DNA of 64,000 nucleotides, taken from contig NZ_JRJE01000029.1 in assembly GCF_000763295.1 (NCBI RefSeq), positions 1 through 64,000 of the forward strand. Direction: 5' to 3'. Under the pieces are notes generated by a model, which saw nothing but the letters and a program-made list of their open reading frames with translations, was not told the DNA's origin and ran no database searches. Made by a program: the position numbers and the translations under genes. This document shows positions 56,551-64,000 of this stretch, in pieces. Numbering within the stretch: position 1 is the stretch's first letter; each line of letters starts with the position of its first letter. Origin of the DNA: Thalassospira australica (GTDB taxonomy: Bacteria; Pseudomonadota; Alphaproteobacteria; Rhodospirillales; Thalassospiraceae).

Positions 56551-56868
56551 TGGCCGCCCTTTCGCGCTTCTGGGATTACCGAACAGTCATTTTCACTTTC
56601 GCTTACCGCGCATTGGTCTGATCCACAGTGGATACAGACAAACAACTTGTTTCAGCAAAAGCACGAAACCACTGATCAATCTTGGTTTCCACACTTTTTT
56701 CACGCGAAGGGAATTTTTTGTATCAGGACAAATGCGCAGGACCATCACACCCACTTCGAACGAACCCGGCCAAGCATGAATAACGGGATGTTTAGTGTTT
56801 GATTTCCGCTTCTGTAAGATGGCGGGTGGTTATCCCGTGCTTGAACGTATCCTTTCTTGGAGTTTGCT
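56551..56868. other. Intergenic region after the MFS start
   Basis: Around 320 bp with no recognised coding frame, repeat or RNA. Base composition begins to shift to AT-rich here, near the border of the last region of the window. Confidence 0.4.
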
Positions 56869-57096
56869 ATGATGGGGAGAGCATTGGACATTTTTCCCCA
56901 GACTGGAGCAAGTTACGGCCATCGCTATTCTCGGAGAATGTACTTAGGCCAGTTCCATGCCCTGAAAACAAATCTCCAGCCTCACAGGCTTCGCACCAAT
57001 CCCCCAGCAATCGAGCTGGTAGAGCGCTTCAATCCCGATCTGCTACAGAAATACCAGACTATGATCCAAGCTGGTAAACTCACAAAAATCGCTTGA
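56869..57096 (+). CDS. Small hypothetical protein at the border of the AT-rich region
   Basis: This 75-residue frame begins at ATG 56869 with TTGGAG 6 nt upstream, so translation is plausible. The sequence is basic and Arg/Tyr/Gln-rich, with ELVERFNPDLLQKYQTMIQA as a likely C-terminal helix. I recognise no family. It ends one base before a broken minus-strand frame, tail to tail. Confidence 0.45.
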   Translation: MMGRALDIFPQTGASYGHRYSRRMYLGQFHALKTNLQPHRLRTNPPAIELVERFNPDLLQKYQTMIQAGKLTKIA

Positions 57097-57324
57097 TCAA
57101 AACGGATACTCTAGGACCAATCGGCATTTAAAGCTTTGCGTTCTCATCCTTGACGTTGTCAGGTTGCAGCCATCGGAAAATTCCATGCTAACGAACTTTA
57201 CTTTATCTTTGTAGTACGATGCTGTTCGTCCAGCACACCTCCCAATGTAGGCATATTGAAAGTCTGCTCCTTGATCATACGGATGATCTATTCATTGCTG
57301 ACCGTAATGATCTCCTTTACCCAT
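57097..57324 (-). pseudogene. Possible broken small gene with internal TGA
   Basis: From ATG 57324 the frame reads MGKGDHYGQQ, meets TGA, then stays open for 64 codons (IDHPYDQGADFQYAYIGRCA, then ASYYKDKVKFVSMEFSDGCN) to TGA 57097. The composition after the stop looks protein-like, and no start codon follows the stop near its N-terminus. It may be a decayed gene or chance. No family is recognised. Confidence 0.3.
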
Positions 57325-57432
57325 CTCCAATTAGAGGACCAATTCTATCCAAAACCAGATGAAGAGACAGGCTTAAGATAAATGCTACACAAAAAGCTAT
57401 CTTACACAAATTACAGCCATGGATTGGATTTT
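57100..57432. other. AT-rich stretch between the 56869 gene and the spermidine-synthase-like gene
   Basis: Apart from the broken frame at 57097-57324, this holds no intact gene, RNA or clear terminator. Base composition is markedly AT-rich compared with the first 55 kb. Confidence 0.4.
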
Positions 57433-59721
57433 CTAGAACTCTTTCTGAGTATAGCCTATATAGTATTCAGTAATTGGATTTAGATCCTCATTTATCGGAT
57501 ATCTCTCATTTATTTTCAGTATCTCTTGTCTATTACCTTTATAGTAATATTCAACCGACATGCGCCCCTCAACCTTTTTGCGCATAATAGGTTCAATTTT
57601 CTCTAGAAGAGACCTTTTGACATCCGCATTGGCTGCTAGCGGTTTGTTGCTCCCCAAACAGAAATAGTAAAAACACTCGAGCCCCCTGAAAGCGGTCGCC
57701 ATCGTTTTCGGTATAATGGAATACTCATTCATCCATGTCATGAGAACACCATTTTCAGTAAGGTGTTCAGACACGAGCATAAAGAACTCATACGAATACA
57801 AATTATTCGAATATGCAGTCGTTGATCGTAAAGGATCCATAAAAATCATGTCATATTGATGCGGTTTTCGTTGCAGGAAGCGTCGACCATCATCGATCAC
57901 TATCGTCAAACGAGGATCGGACAAAATCGATTTATAGATGTCGTGTTGTGATAAATTATCCAAAAGGGTCTCAGAAATCTCCACTACTGTGACACTTTTG
58001 ACATCCGGATTTCTCAGAACCGCCTGTGTTATTGTTCCACCACCGAAGCCGATGATTAGAACATTATCTATTGACTTGGAATGCGTAAACGCCTCCAGAA
58101 CCTCGACCTCAAAGGCTTCCGAAGGAAAGGTCGCATGGATAGCGCCCCCAATATAAACTTTAACAAAATCTTGTTCTTCCTTATGACCCAACATACTGAC
58201 GACAACACCATCGCGACCCTCAGTTACAACTCTAGTGTCTTCTTTGAATGACGGATGTAGCTGATCATACAAGGAATGTTTGTCCGGAAGAAAAGCCCAC
58301 GCCCCCATCAACAAGCCGATCCATAATGAATACTGAACTGCCTTACCATAGGTGAATTGCTTAGGAATGCAGATGCCCAAAATCCATGTTAGACCACAGA
58401 CAATGAATATGAATAAAGTTTTCTCGGTTCCATAATTTGGAAGCAACCAAAAACTTGTTACTAGTGCACCTAAGACATTTCCCAGGATAGTCAAACCGTA
58501 CACTATACCTGCAGTAAAGGCGTCCTTATCAGGATTTTGTACCGATAGAATATTGACTAGAGGAAAACTGGCCCCCATCAACAGCGTGATAGGGATCAAT
58601 ATAATCAATGGCCAAACTAACAGATCAACAAGTAGATATACAGAAGTTAGAATCTCCGGCCAAGTATCACCCTTTATTGCGTACTTAATATTGTAAGGGG
58701 GATGGAGTTGCTCTGCAAAGCTAGTTTCGAGCATCCAACGTACACTTCCATCAGCGTGAAAAATAGTGATAAATAACAATAGCATGTACAATGCTATTGC
58801 CGAATTGATGCTATAAAAAACGTTCTTCAAATTTCTGCACTTTGAGAGGCGCAGCCAGCGATTGAACCCATAGCTACCTAAAGCTATCCCAAGCAAGTAA
58901 ACGCCAAGTATCGTTGCAAACACATATGCAGAAGACTTCAATAAAGTTCCAATAAAACGAAATGAAAGTATTTGGTATCCGATAGCAAGGAATCCAGTCG
59001 AAAACACGATCAAAAATGTATTTATACTGTTAAACGATGAAGTGTAATTCATGCGGCCACTAGCAAATGGTGCGGCGACGGAAACATTCGAGTTCTTCAA
59101 TAAGGTCAACCCGGAAACCAAAACGACCAAAGCAAAATTTAGTATAGATGCTGCGTATACCGTTATTTCTAGTCCATACCATGATATTAGCCAGTAAGCT
59201 GCAACCAGTGCACCAGCTGATGCTCCTAGTGTATTTACAAAGTAAAGCCAACTTATTGTTTTTCCAAAATCTTTATAGGTATCGTTTAGTATTTTGACTA
59301 CCACAGGCAATGTCATGCCCATCAGGGTAGTTGGCAGCGCAAACATCCCTGCGATAACCCAAAACCCTTGACTATAGGAAGCATTGACTAAGTAGGGAAT
59401 CATCCATTTCAGAGATATCAAGCTCATCAAGCCGATCAACCCTAGTACGCCCTCTATCAATATGTAAAATCTCAGAAGCTTGTTAGACCGTTCAGCAAGG
59501 AAACCGCCCAAGACAGACCCAACCCCAAGTCCAAACAAAAATACCGAGACAATCACAGCTGTAGATACGGATCCAACCCCATAATAAAGCGTAAGGGCTC
59601 TCTGCCAGACAACTTGGTATATTAACGCTGAACACCCCGACAAGAAAAATATTAGCGAAACAAGAGCAAAGAAAAAATCCCTACGCAGGAATTGTTTTTG
59701 TATACTGGAATAATATTTCAT
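57433..59721 (-). CDS. Membrane-fused spermidine-synthase-like protein
   Basis: This 762-residue protein has about twelve to fourteen membrane helices in the first 490 residues, with an MFS-like gating start (SALIYQVVWQRALTLYYGVG). The C-terminal Rossmann domain is like aminopropyltransferases: LIIGFGGGTITQAVLRN near residue 557, the VVEIS acidic strand, IVIDDGRRFL, and FMDPLRSTTAYSNNLYSYEF near residue 627. In true spermidine synthases the latter motif is D-x-x-D-P. Here the second Asp is Arg, so spermidine synthesis is doubtful. There is no ribosome site before ATG 59721. It lies 136 bp after the SGNH-like gene and is last in the AT-rich operon. Confidence 0.85.
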   Translation of the reverse strand: MKYYSSIQKQFLRRDFFFALVSLIFFLSGCSALIYQVVWQRALTLYYGVGSVSTAVIVSVFLFGLGVGSVLGGFLAERSNKLLRFYILIEGVLGLIGLMSLISLKWMIPYLVNASYSQGFWVIAGMFALPTTLMGMTLPVVVKILNDTYKDFGKTISWLYFVNTLGASAGALVAAYWLISWYGLEITVYAASILNFALVVLVSGLTLLKNSNVSVAAPFASGRMNYTSSFNSINTFLIVFSTGFLAIGYQILSFRFIGTLLKSSAYVFATILGVYLLGIALGSYGFNRWLRLSKCRNLKNVFYSINSAIALYMLLLFITIFHADGSVRWMLETSFAEQLHPPYNIKYAIKGDTWPEILTSVYLLVDLLVWPLIILIPITLLMGASFPLVNILSVQNPDKDAFTAGIVYGLTILGNVLGALVTSFWLLPNYGTEKTLFIFIVCGLTWILGICIPKQFTYGKAVQYSLWIGLLMGAWAFLPDKHSLYDQLHPSFKEDTRVVTEGRDGVVVSMLGHKEEQDFVKVYIGGAIHATFPSEAFEVEVLEAFTHSKSIDNVLIIGFGGGTITQAVLRNPDVKSVTVVEISETLLDNLSQHDIYKSILSDPRLTIVIDDGRRFLQRKPHQYDMIFMDPLRSTTAYSNNLYSYEFFMLVSEHLTENGVLMTWMNEYSIIPKTMATAFRGLECFYYFCLGSNKPLAANADVKRSLLEKIEPIMRKKVEGRMSVEYYYKGNRQEILKINERYPINEDLNPITEYYIGYTQKEF

Positions 59722-59857
59722 CAAAAAACAACATAAACAAAATTAACACCTTGCGAAAACACGCCAGGCGCACAAATTATCAATATAACGATAATCGACC
59801 ATAGAAACGAAATGAAAATTTCTTTAATTAATTTTCTCATCATATTAGTTCAGCCCC

Positions 59858-61069
59858 TTATTCGGAACGTGGCGCAAACGTTCCATTTAGATCCTTCTCA
59901 AGGATTTTACCAAATATTTTCTGACCTTCTGCCGTCAAGTTATCATAATGATACATATAGGTTGATAGGGTTTCGTTTGACAGATAATCTAAGTACGTTG
60001 CATCATACTGAGTGGCAATTTCGCGGAAAACTGAGGAGGAAAACTCTAGGTCTTTACGTCGAATATTTGTATGTTCGGCAACTTTATCAACAAATGTTGG
60101 CACCATAACAAATGCAGTGTTAATTCCTTTTTGGCGCGCATAAGAACTAATACGAGTTTGAGGGGAATACTCTCGGATAATACTTTCATACTCTTCTTGA
60201 TCCCGAATTACAAATGCATTCCAAATAGGCTGCATAGCATCACGCTCAAGTATTTCAACTTGTTGATCGTCCGACAAAGGATCAACGTAACTATCTATTC
60301 TTTGGCTAACGAATGAAAAATAGGATTCGTCAATATCTGATGTTGCATCCAATATATATCGATTGCGATATAAAGCAAAAGACCCTAATAAATCGGAGCG
60401 AAGCCAAGCTGAATAACTCGACCAAAATCCACCGTCTTTCACCTGTTCATGAAAAGAATATCTTCGTTGTGTGTTGATCATAGCGAGACCAGTATCCCTC
60501 CACAGCTTGCGGGAGGTATCAACGAGTTCATCTGCGTTCATTTCAGTCGCTGATCGAGATGCCTTAATATACCATTCTTGAGCATCTTGAAGATAGTTGT
60601 GAAAGGGATGTAGCTGCACAATGATATTCCTCACCCCTTTTTGATAGGCATAGTCAATTGATGCTAGCATCAAATTGTAGTTAAATGATTGCATGGACAG
60701 ATTTACAATTTGATAGTTTGGTAATTTCAGTGAATGGGTGAACGATTTGGTGGCCCCATGTCCATAAGCTACACAATCGCCCAAGATTAGAACTGTGTTA
60801 GGCCCAATTCCCTGCGCATCCAAATACTCTTGTGTCTGAACAAGTGCAGTTGACATATCCATGTTACGAAATGGCGGCGGCATATCATCAGCAGCATAAA
60901 ACTGACGGGCGATCAGCTGACTAATTAAAGAAGCCGTGGCGACGAATAATATTATCAAGCCAAAGCGCAATGGGGTGATTTGCATAAAGTCTGTTTTAAG
61001 CCAACCTTGGGCAATCTTAATCCACGCCTGTAGATTACTAATTATATCAATAAGTTTATATTCTAGCAT
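59858..61069 (-). CDS. SGNH-like periplasmic protein, partner of MBOAT acyltransferase
   Basis: This 403-residue protein has one N-terminal membrane helix (about residues 36-54). A mature domain outside the membrane starts with TVLILGDCVAYGHGATKSF, matching SGNH block I, except that the catalytic Ser of GDS is Cys (C99). Block V appears as YHYDNLTAEGQKIF (residues 374-378 H-Y-D-N-L), where the usual D-x-x-H reads H-x-x-N. It therefore looks catalytically atypical, or uses a different set of residues. It begins 3 bp after the MBOAT gene, as AlgJ, DltD and PatB-type partners do, suggesting a role in acyl transfer across the membrane. Confidence 0.7.
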   Translation of the reverse strand: MLEYKLIDIISNLQAWIKIAQGWLKTDFMQITPLRFGLIILFVATASLISQLIARQFYAADDMPPPFRNMDMSTALVQTQEYLDAQGIGPNTVLILGDCVAYGHGATKSFTHSLKLPNYQIVNLSMQSFNYNLMLASIDYAYQKGVRNIIVQLHPFHNYLQDAQEWYIKASRSATEMNADELVDTSRKLWRDTGLAMINTQRRYSFHEQVKDGGFWSSYSAWLRSDLLGSFALYRNRYILDATSDIDESYFSFVSQRIDSYVDPLSDDQQVEILERDAMQPIWNAFVIRDQEEYESIIREYSPQTRISSYARQKGINTAFVMVPTFVDKVAEHTNIRRKDLEFSSSVFREIATQYDATYLDYLSNETLSTYMYHYDNLTAEGQKIFGKILEKDLNGTFAPRSE

Positions 61070-61072
61070 GGC

Positions 61073-62323
61073 TCAATCCAACCCAAATAGAACAAAGAAC
61101 TGCTCGTTAGATAAAAGGACCGGCCCAAATGTGATTATTGCTATATGAAATGTTACAAGGCGCGCTACCCAAGGGTAGCACTGGGCCTGTAAGGGATGCG
61201 CTTTTAAATAGGCGCCTAGAGGTTTATCGAAATTTGAACTCAAAAGGACCTCAACTGCCAACACCAGTCCTGACGATATTCCAAAGAAGAGCATACCATA
61301 TGTTTCTCCATGCCAAAGACCACAGATCGCAAATGTAATAAAAATTGAAAGTGCGGATAAGTAGGTTTGCGCTGCTTTCGTTTTAGCACCAAATTTTTTC
61401 ATTAATATGAAAAAAAGAGGATAGTAGATGTAATCTCGTAACCATGCGGCGAGCGTCATGTGCCAACGACGCCATAGATTGGTTAGGCTAGTCGCCATAT
61501 ATGGATGATCGAAGTTTTCAGGTAAATTGATTCCAATCACACGAGATGAAGAAATGGCGATGTCTGAATAACCGGAAAAATTCATATATTCGTACCAATA
61601 ATAAATAATCGCTGCAAAATAGACCTGCATTGCAGCAGCCGGTATAATTCCGCCATTTGCAAAGGGTAATGCATCTTTGTGCAAGACACCTGCAACGACA
61701 AATACTTTAAGACACCCTAATAAAAAGCGTGGCAGATTATCAAAATAAGCTTGCAGAATATTTTGTCTGTTGGCTGCGGCGTTATCAATTGAAACTCTAA
61801 AATTCCCCAGACGCTCTATTGGACCCGACATGAATGTTGGGAACCAAAGGATATAAGCAAGATAGTCCAAGAACGGTAAATTCTTCAATCTTTCGGCACG
61901 GATATCTACAATCACGCTTATTATTTTTACGATAAGGAACGAAAGTCCAACTATCGGCATCAGGCTTTCATTCAATAGCGTACGTATATCTAAAATTACG
62001 GGGCTGAAGTACCCCCAGAACTGATATTTGACCCCTATGAAATAGGATAGCCAAATACTAATCGCAACCCAAAAACACGTCTGTTTAAGGTGTGTTCTTG
62101 AAATTGATACATATAGAAGAAGATAGACTATCACCAAAATGGCACTAGTGGTTACCAGATACACATACTTGATACCCGGTATCGACGCGATAAATATGAG
62201 ACTGATCCCCGACATTGCGACGACAAATATAGATCGCCCCAAATATTTAGTAAGGTTCAATGCTAACAATGCGACGGGAAGAAGTAAGAAGAACTCAATA
62301 TTCTCAAAAATATTTGGATTCAC
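61073..62323 (-). CDS. MBOAT-family O-acyltransferase (AlgI-like)
   Basis: This 416-residue membrane protein has about ten to twelve helices. MBOAT signatures are LWFPTFMSGPIERLGNF, NFSGYSDIAISSSRVIGINL, ATSLTNLWRRWHMTLAAWLR and the catalytic His in ICGLWHGETYGMLFFG (about residue 335). MBOAT proteins of this branch pass acetyl or other acyl groups through the membrane to periplasmic polymers. The start is GTG and overlaps the stop of the FG-GAP gene (GTGA), with GGAG a few bases upstream, so translation is coupled. The identity of the acyl acceptor is unknown. Confidence 0.9.
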   Translation of the reverse strand: MNPNIFENIEFFLLLPVALLALNLTKYLGRSIFVVAMSGISLIFIASIPGIKYVYLVTTSAILVIVYLLLYVSISRTHLKQTCFWVAISIWLSYFIGVKYQFWGYFSPVILDIRTLLNESLMPIVGLSFLIVKIISVIVDIRAERLKNLPFLDYLAYILWFPTFMSGPIERLGNFRVSIDNAAANRQNILQAYFDNLPRFLLGCLKVFVVAGVLHKDALPFANGGIIPAAAMQVYFAAIIYYWYEYMNFSGYSDIAISSSRVIGINLPENFDHPYMATSLTNLWRRWHMTLAAWLRDYIYYPLFFILMKKFGAKTKAAQTYLSALSIFITFAICGLWHGETYGMLFFGISSGLVLAVEVLLSSNFDKPLGAYLKAHPLQAQCYPWVARLVTFHIAIITFGPVLLSNEQFFVLFGLD

Positions 62324-63957
62324 TTAACTCTCCACAGGTCCAAAATCTTTCTTGAATCCAGAACATAAACAGCGCCTGCGTTTAGACCGCTACAGATGTC
62401 ATTGTCTGCAGAAACGATAATATCATCATGTCCATCGTTGTTGTAGTCAGAGGCATCCCAATGAGAAAATGGGGGAGCCAATTGGCTAACTGCAGGACCT
62501 ACTATTTTAATGATGTTAGGATCTTCAACCGAAAAGTCGTTTCGCCCTTTCAAATTCTTCCCTAAAAGTATGAACAACGCTCCAGCCTCATCCATATGAC
62601 GATGGCCAGTAAAGCTCAGATCTGAAATTCCATCACCATCTATATCACCGGCACGCAAGGACAAGCTAGATCCAATGCCATCATAATTGGTAAACTTGCG
62701 GCTACCCACAACGGTTGTAGCAGCGACGGCATCAATGTCGTAAGTTCCTAACCCTGACCATATCTCGGCAGGCACCAACCACATCTTTCCAACTACTTCT
62801 CCCTGCTCATTTTTCCACCAGGGTTGAGAAATCCAAGCATCAATCGCATTTAATTTGACAAAGTTGCCAAACCCGCCGATGAGGATTTGGCCATCCTGAA
62901 AACCTGACAGTTCCCCGAGTTTCGTAATGGTGTTATCTCGGCTTAATTGGAATATAGACAATCCATTTCTCGTGCGAACAACAAATGACTTACCACCACT
63001 TGACGGTAAAGGCATCAAACGAAAAGGTATGCTTGGAGCAACATCGACATCAAGACGGTAATTGTGGAGCGTATTCAGTTCTCCCGTGCCGTCATGTAGT
63101 GCACGGACAGAAATGGTTTTTCTATCACTCTCTAAAGATAGCAAAACCGTCTTTTCCCCTTCCAAAAATATTGTATCAAGAGGTATCTGAGGTGCTTGCG
63201 ACAAATCACCATTGAAGTTTTTCGAAAACGACGACAGGACAAGACGGTTACCAATAATGAGATCGGCCGCACCGTCACCATTTATATCGCCAGTATTATA
63301 TCCCAACGGGCGATAGAATCTTTTCTCGCTTGAATAGAATGGTTTGTTGTCATTAGTTTTGAACCAAGCCTCCAAAAGCCCATAATTACTATCCAAGTAA
63401 GTGACGGTTCGAGTGTTGGTTTTCAGAGTCTCTCCTGACAACAGGCTATCAAATGATCGGTTTCTATGGGCCCATTCGGCATTGCCATGATAACTCAGAG
63501 CAAGCAAACTCGCCGGTTTTGCCTCATCTGAAAACGGCAAAGGAGTTATTCGTGCTCCATAATAAAGGAAAGAACTTCCAACAAAACCATCTCCACGCGG
63601 GGGGCAAACTCTATGCAAGAAAATGTCGTTTACATCCAAAAAACGCTTCTCATTTTCTCCGTAAATAGAAAATATTTCTTTATCGACTAGACCGTAATCT
63701 TGATATCGAATGTAAGCACCGTATTGCTTATAAAAGAAGGTGATCCAGTTTTTTTCTTTTTGAATCTGACGTCGTTCATCTTCTAAGTCGGCCAACTTAC
63801 CTTCAAGCTGCTTTACACTACCGTTAAACACATAGCCTGTCGTAAGATGCCCACCTAAATAAAATGCCACTCCCAACATTAAAAAAAACAACAAAGCGGC
63901 TAAACTAAGTGCTAATTTCTTTGTCTTAAAAATGATTTTCTGATTAGAGTTTGGCAC
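62320..63957 (-). CDS. Membrane-anchored FG-GAP beta-propeller protein
   Basis: This 545-residue protein has a basic N-terminus, one membrane helix (about residues 15-38), a short coiled coil (about 47-68), and a large extracytoplasmic part. Calcium-binding FG-GAP/integrin-alpha-like repeats are visible as GDINGDGAADLIIGNR (near 225), GDIDGDGISDLSFTG (near 432) and SDYNNDGHDDIIVSAD (near 502). Such propellers bind ligands or proteins. No catalytic domain is seen. The start is GTG 63957. It is the first visible gene of the AT-rich operon, whose upstream end lies beyond the window. Confidence 0.82.
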   Translation of the reverse strand: MPNSNQKIIFKTKKLALSLAALLFFLMLGVAFYLGGHLTTGYVFNGSVKQLEGKLADLEDERRQIQKEKNWITFFYKQYGAYIRYQDYGLVDKEIFSIYGENEKRFLDVNDIFLHRVCPPRGDGFVGSSFLYYGARITPLPFSDEAKPASLLALSYHGNAEWAHRNRSFDSLLSGETLKTNTRTVTYLDSNYGLLEAWFKTNDNKPFYSSEKRFYRPLGYNTGDINGDGAADLIIGNRLVLSSFSKNFNGDLSQAPQIPLDTIFLEGEKTVLLSLESDRKTISVRALHDGTGELNTLHNYRLDVDVAPSIPFRLMPLPSSGGKSFVVRTRNGLSIFQLSRDNTITKLGELSGFQDGQILIGGFGNFVKLNAIDAWISQPWWKNEQGEVVGKMWLVPAEIWSGLGTYDIDAVAATTVVGSRKFTNYDGIGSSLSLRAGDIDGDGISDLSFTGHRHMDEAGALFILLGKNLKGRNDFSVEDPNIIKIVGPAVSQLAPPFSHWDASDYNNDGHDDIIVSADNDICSGLNAGAVYVLDSRKILDLWRVK

Positions 63958-64000
63958 GATTTCTCAATTCCCTTGCTAACTGCTTTCTACATGCATTTGA

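Follow-up and report, generated by a model that had tools for sequence, protein, structure and literature searches.

Near one end of a contig from Thalassospira australica lies an island of genes that, we think it quite likely, encodes a complete but rearranged relative of the Dlt-type transmembrane aminoacylation pathway, including the steps of a detached acyl shuttle. The window, by which we mean the whole stretch analysed, is the first 64,000 bases (1–64000) of the 70,608-bp contig NZ_JRJE01000029.1; the adjoining contig DNA was analysed as well. The island, of about 11 kb, runs from base 56720 to 67802 of the contig, with 56720–64000 of that inside the window, and consists of two divergent operons: a transfer half on the minus strand and a loading half on the plus strand. 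That a Dlt-like pathway sits in an imported island is well supported by sequence, from which we read the gene content, the motifs, the insertion and the recurrence of both the core and the detached shuttles. The outcome would probably be a small amino acid attached to something on the cell surface.

At the centre of the argument is a microprotein. DltB passes its amino acid to the tyrosine of an FXYXXF motif at the end of DltX, and MBOATs fed by acyl-CoA have FXYXXF on their own C-terminus, borne by two additional helices (PMC12148441). A scan for the motif turned up a minus-strand open reading frame (ORF) of 40 amino acids at 59721–59843 (MMRKLIKEIFISFLWSIIVILIICAPGVFSQGVNFVYVVF), previously overlooked, which fills the 134-bp gap between the SGNH-like and MFS–spermidine synthase genes. 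Its ATG lies 14 nucleotides past the SGNH stop, and its own stop overlaps the start of the next gene as TGATG. Its C-terminus, FVYVVF, is an exact fit to the acyl-shuttle motif of DltX. Judged from Markov-shuffled islands, the chance expectation of an ORF that combines a membrane helix with FXYXXF at its end is 0.003 per island. The protein has no match in the Pfam or NCBIfam libraries. The genes on which the proposal turns are these:

59721–59843, minus strand: DltX-like microprotein, 40 amino acids; one membrane helix; C-terminal FVYVVF with Tyr37
59858–61069, minus strand: putative SGNH/DltD-like exported protein, 403 amino acids; N-terminal membrane helix; block-I-like LILGDC
61073–62323, minus strand: DltB-like MBOAT, 416 amino acids; PF03062 E 1.3e-16; TIGR04091 E 1.4e-55
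65078–65311 of the contig, plus strand: carrier protein; PF00550 E 2.9e-07
65299–66114 of the contig, plus strand: Cys-cluster protein; PF03692 below cut-off; eight invariant cysteines
66095–67651 of the contig, plus strand: adenylation enzyme; TIGR01733 above cut-off; pocket nearest AlmE

The MBOAT aligns with the solved DltB structure 6BUG over 350 residues, catalytic histidine included (His338, in GLWHG), although in the NCBIfam search its score against TIGR04091, the DltB model, falls below the equivalog cut-off despite that E-value. It is a short protein that ends ...FFVLFGLD, without the C-terminal FXYXXF. Three bases separate its gene from that of the SGNH-like protein, which is placed between the MBOAT and microprotein genes.

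The SGNH-like protein is harder to place, and its label is putative because it comes from motif and position. The protein has no Pfam match and no DltD match in Pfam or NCBIfam, and its LILGDC has a cysteine where serine is expected. It was found in 0 of 150 other relatives; 385 genomes of the class gave weak matches only (18 bits at most), and plasmid searches returned no informative relatives. Weak matches in G496 and G883 were discarded as chance, being unrelated ORFs (one phosphodiesterase-like, the other a large restriction-type protein), as was one in G390 that has in-frame stops. Alignments of the SGNH-like and Cys-cluster proteins, searched against the Protein Data Bank, gave no match. 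An AlphaFold model of the protein alone had a pLDDT (predicted local distance difference test) of 37.7 and was not used, and the idea that its N-terminus carries the shuttle was dropped, as FXYXXF is absent there. We infer that it works like a Dlt partner, yet we do not file it as a member of DltD.

In the loading half, the carrier passes the PF00550 cut-off and the DltC model matches it weakly and below cut-off (E 0.0082), so we regard it as a carrier of the DltC kind, not of the DltC family. The adenylation enzyme scores 336.7 bits against TIGR01733 (cut-off 317.4) and 276–281 bits against the DltA models, under those models' own cut-offs. Its pocket region is closest to AlmE (4OXI, 77.4 bits), with DltA at 44 or less, and IdnL7 (6AKD), an enzyme that takes Gly, Ala and Ser, is the second-best match. 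The pocket shares a leucine and a cysteine with AlmE (L248, C316) and DltA (L198, C269), residues that in those enzymes give the binding site for Gly or D-Ala its shape (PMC11253843). The ten-residue codes are DLFFLCLVAK in the window, DLMFLCLIAK in G690 (a genome from another, distant class), DLHFLCLIAK in Solidesulfovibrio and, read from the alignment, DLHLFCLIAK in AlmE; the Solidesulfovibrio relatives are only two positions off the AlmE code. AlmE acts on glycine but tolerates D-Ala to some degree, activating it in vitro (PMC11253843). Glycine is our best guess for the substrate, and we hold it with moderate confidence. The Cys-cluster protein reaches 15.8 bits against PF03692 (the YkgJ, or CxxCxxCC, family; cut-off 23), with a similar cysteine pattern; a scan of viral contigs with it gave no informative relatives.

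If a motif-less MBOAT goes with a detached shuttle here, does it do so elsewhere? In a first sample of 42 MBOAT ORFs, from the first 41 loci fetched (40 of the class plus G690), 37 end in FXYXXF. The motif-less MBOATs of two genomes, G263 and G286, adjoin carrier genes and FkbH-type loaders, and at each locus the terminal motif sits on a membrane microprotein of its own (FEYRVF in one, FVYQNF in the other). Across 819 kb and 6,889 small ORFs, a helix with a terminal FXYXXF occurs in three only (G263, G286 and the window), all adjoining motif-less MBOATs with a carrier gene. We extended the sample to 83 complete MBOATs, mostly short or top-scoring picks, microproteins being ignored during the choice. 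The C-terminal motif is present in 70 and absent in 13. A microprotein lies within 7 kb of 10 of the 13 motif-less MBOATs versus 2 of the 70 with the motif (Fisher p 7e-9), and beside 5 of 7 motif-less MBOATs (p 2e-5) when five gammaproteobacterial-type loci and the window are left out; since these counts cover related sequences and selected loci, they speak for association, not prevalence. An eleventh microprotein, at L127, fell under the hydrophobicity threshold and was found by eye, and that of L130 has a relaxed motif, LVYKNM. This leaves one motif-less MBOAT of the 13, at L128, unexplained. Both exceptions among the motif-bearing MBOATs are DUF5989 (PF19451) proteins (L115:11608–11778 and L136:6688–6840); these microproteins have one helix, end in FIYT[LV]F and may represent another type of acyl shuttle.

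The loaders beside these pairs are varied: FkbH-type enzymes, acyl ligases and adenylation enzymes. Three loci combine an FkbH-type loader, a carrier, a motif-less MBOAT and a DltX-like microprotein (L062:4991–10895 in G263, L063:5495–10693 in G286 and L130:1699–6272 in G690, the last labelled FkbH from resemblance, not a profile search), which suggests that glyceryl-type or similar groups may be carried by the same route. In two others (L106:5023–10198 in G436 and L127:9437–15912 in G597), a motif-less MBOAT gene is accompanied by SGNH-like, AMP-ligase, carrier and sulfotransferase-like genes, and the microproteins end in FIYAGF and FRYAGF. The five gammaproteobacterial-type dlt loci, L122–L126, run in the order D-X-B-A-C and encode a DltX-like protein of 39–40 amino acids ending FEYQ[KQ]F; the two checked have no Pfam or NCBIfam match.

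The core itself recurs. The original prediction had proposed searching other genomes for the order of the four minus-strand genes it saw in the window; the samples searched contained no second instance of it, though they did contain a core of five genes. In G690 the Cys-cluster, carrier, adenylation, SGNH-like and MBOAT genes run head to tail, and the MBOAT of this cassette has a fused shuttle, ending FVYHQF. The two SGNH-like proteins (GNC in G690, GDC in the window) both have cysteine where the nucleophilic serine is expected; they are 20% identical, and hhalign gives no link between them. On Solidesulfovibrio plasmids the adenylation–carrier–Cys-cluster trio stands without a nearby MBOAT, beside CDP-glycerol glycerophosphotransferase and nucleotidyltransferase genes (L043:12028–14619 and L044:12028–14619). 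Leisingera and Phaeobacter plasmids have an AlmE-like enzyme fused to a carrier inside exopolysaccharide loci (L045:7935–10790 and L046:7950–10685, respectively). A test for a Cys-cluster domain in these fusions was negative; at the C-terminus they have what looks like an SGNH protein (GSS, with DKNH or NISH).

How might the pathway run? Every reaction, like the substrate and the acceptor, is inferred. The adenylation enzyme would activate a small amino acid, most likely glycine, and load it as a thioester onto the carrier, a step to which the Cys-cluster protein would also belong. The DltB-like MBOAT would take the amino acid from the carrier and move it across the inner membrane, where Tyr37 in the FVYVVF of the microprotein would accept it. 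From the microprotein it would pass to the SGNH-like protein in the periplasm, perhaps onto a cysteine, and from there to an acceptor in the envelope, probably a glycan whose synthesis is encoded elsewhere in the genome. A more ambitious version strikes us as improbable: that there is a broad Gram-negative class of carrier-fed MBOATs with detached DltX-like microproteins and varied loaders (adenylation enzymes, FkbH-type enzymes, acyl ligases), of which the island is a branch relaying glycine via a cysteine thioester on the SGNH-like protein, the glycine being tailored (aminopropylated or methylated, for example) by the Cys-cluster or spermidine synthase-like enzyme before or after transfer.

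Like Dlt systems (DltX-A-B-C-D, L122–L126 included), the island has an adenylation enzyme, a carrier, a motif-less DltB-like MBOAT, a periplasmic partner and a one-helix FXYXXF microprotein, and as in the gammaproteobacterial loci the microprotein gene lies directly 3' of the partner gene. It differs in its two divergent operons, its AlmE-like rather than DltA-like pocket, a partner that cannot be aligned to DltD and has Cys for Ser, and its additional Cys-cluster, propeller, beta-helix and MFS–spermidine synthase genes. With AlmEFG, which puts glycine onto lipid A in Vibrio cholerae, it shares the AlmE-type pocket and a stand-alone carrier. AlmG is an LpxL-type lipid A acyltransferase, not an MBOAT; the island has an MBOAT and no AlmG acyltransferase among its ORFs, and its shuttle microprotein has no known counterpart in AlmEFG. 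As a further Dlt-like system, PMC4448142 cites the Bordetella dra locus, which modifies a Gram-negative surface with D-alanine.

The original prediction had envisaged MBOAT/SGNH acylation of an exported polymer, and the general idea holds. The loading genes past 64000 and the microprotein, however, point to Dlt-type aminoacylation rather than acetyl-CoA-fed acetylation of alginate or peptidoglycan. O-acetylation of the AlgI/PatAB type also pairs an MBOAT with an exported partner and uses a FXYXXF tyrosine shuttle, but its donor is acyl-CoA and its shuttle sits on the MBOAT C-terminus, where the island has a carrier and a shuttle on a separate protein. For the island to be such a system, the loading genes would need a separate function and the 40-amino acid ORF would be noise. 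Most MBOATs of the class are of that type, as the 70 of 83 attest, and the loading genes do form their own operon. Yet the MBOAT in the window, a short one, ends without a shuttle motif, both operons lie in one island, G690 joins the same loading genes to SGNH and MBOAT genes, and the microprotein, with its perfect motif and tight spacing, recurs in kind beside other motif-less MBOATs; we consider this very unlikely. We give just as little credence to the idea that the loading half (adenylation enzyme, carrier, Cys-cluster protein) serves to produce a modified amino acid or a small peptide-like compound, with the MBOAT half as unrelated cargo. The solitary Solidesulfovibrio trio is what such an idea would lead one to expect, but the G690 trio runs straight into SGNH and MBOAT genes, and elsewhere carrier genes go with MBOATs that lack the motif and have their shuttle detached. 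A Dlt-like pathway that carries D-alanine or another small amino acid instead of glycine is possible, if doubtful. The in vitro activity of AlmE towards D-Ala, the DltA-model scores and the breadth of IdnL7 lean that way; the residue at GrsA position 322, Leu as in AlmE and not Thr as stated for DltA, and the near-AlmE codes of the Solidesulfovibrio relatives lean back.

Several points weigh against a Dlt-type pathway that handles glycine. The loading and transfer halves sit in divergent operons, and the island contains no acceptor or glycan genes. The SGNH-like protein matches no family, hhalign detects no similarity to DltD (probability below 1%) or to other SGNH proteins of such loci, and besides the replacement of serine by cysteine, a block-V Asp-x-x-His is not evident. 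We know of no described Dlt system with a Cys-cluster protein. Glycine was read from pocket similarity alone, at 34–35% identity to the nearest enzymes compared. Finally, the G690 genome is fragmented, with 8% contamination, so the placement of its cassette is uncertain.

The island is horizontally acquired and is not present at the same site in 14 relatives from the genus. The MFS-transporter and aldo/keto-reductase genes that flank it are 11,976 bp apart here versus about 0.9–1.0 kb in those relatives, and in blastn comparisons with six fetched relatives similarity ends at or next to base 56720 in five and restarts near 67802 in all six. The original prediction described four minus-strand genes in DNA poorer in guanine plus cytosine (GC) than the other 57 kb. 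All four ORFs have the boundaries it gave, and the GTGA overlap and 3-bp gap said to couple the first three are both present. The GC content of 57433–63957 is 0.408, and the lowest for any 6,525-bp stretch of 1–56720 is 0.511. As a unit, though, the operon was drawn too small: low GC runs on past the window end to about 67.7 kb and the island to about 67.8 kb, and the 40-amino acid ORF in the gap had been missed. Extending the sequence past 64000, as had been advised, gave the rest of a beta-helix protein and the carrier, Cys-cluster and adenylation genes. No integrase or glycosyltransferase was recognised among the island ORFs. The edges and the remaining genes are as follows:

56812–56842, plus strand: imperfect direct repeat, left copy, at one island edge
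67809–67839 of the contig: imperfect direct repeat, right copy, at the other island edge
57433–59724, minus strand: MFS-fused spermidine synthase-like membrane protein, 763 amino acids; PF01564 (Spermine_synth) E 4.2e-16
62320–63957, minus strand: membrane-anchored FG-GAP beta-propeller, 545 amino acids; PF01839 E 4e-12; calcium-binding-like loops
63944–64000 in the window, ORF to contig base 65056, minus strand: parallel beta-helix-like secreted protein; likely start 64927, signal peptide

The edge repeat has only these two copies in the whole genome and has a sequence match to the 3' end of the adjacent gene, which encodes a membrane protein, in the manner of an attachment site. The last three proteins would be accessories. 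The families originally proposed stand, with profile matches, for the FG-GAP, MBOAT and spermidine synthase proteins; the SGNH-like protein is the one without a Pfam match. The propeller gene overlaps that of the MBOAT by 4 bp (the GTGA). The only good relative of the propeller in our searches is in G044, in the surface-glycan locus L008, searches of plasmids and of the genome collection giving no informative ones; a role as binder or scaffold is a guess. The beta-helix fold is predicted, with a weak DUF1565 match. The MFS–spermidine synthase gene more likely starts at the ATG at 59721, overlapping the microprotein stop. Its product scores 98.1 bits against NF037959, the model for MFS-fused spermidine synthases (cut-off 40), and by domain similarity its catalytic domain resembles aminopropyltransferases; the sequence speaks neither for nor against the polyamine-type modification that had been suggested.

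What does all this mean? With this island, an alphaproteobacterium has acquired from outside a Dlt-like gene set that is largely sufficient in itself. Specialists will probably care most about the detached shuttle and the rule to which it points. According to a 2025 study of MBOAT–SGNH pairs, a microprotein like DltX is absent from MBOAT pathways except Dlt (PMC12148441). Our survey suggests, to the contrary, that motif-less MBOATs, usually near a carrier gene, come with an overlooked motif protein of 38–50 amino acids, those checked matching no family in Pfam or NCBIfam. If true, the C-terminus of an MBOAT would, by a simple rule, predict which acyl donor it uses, and new envelope modifications could be found in this way.

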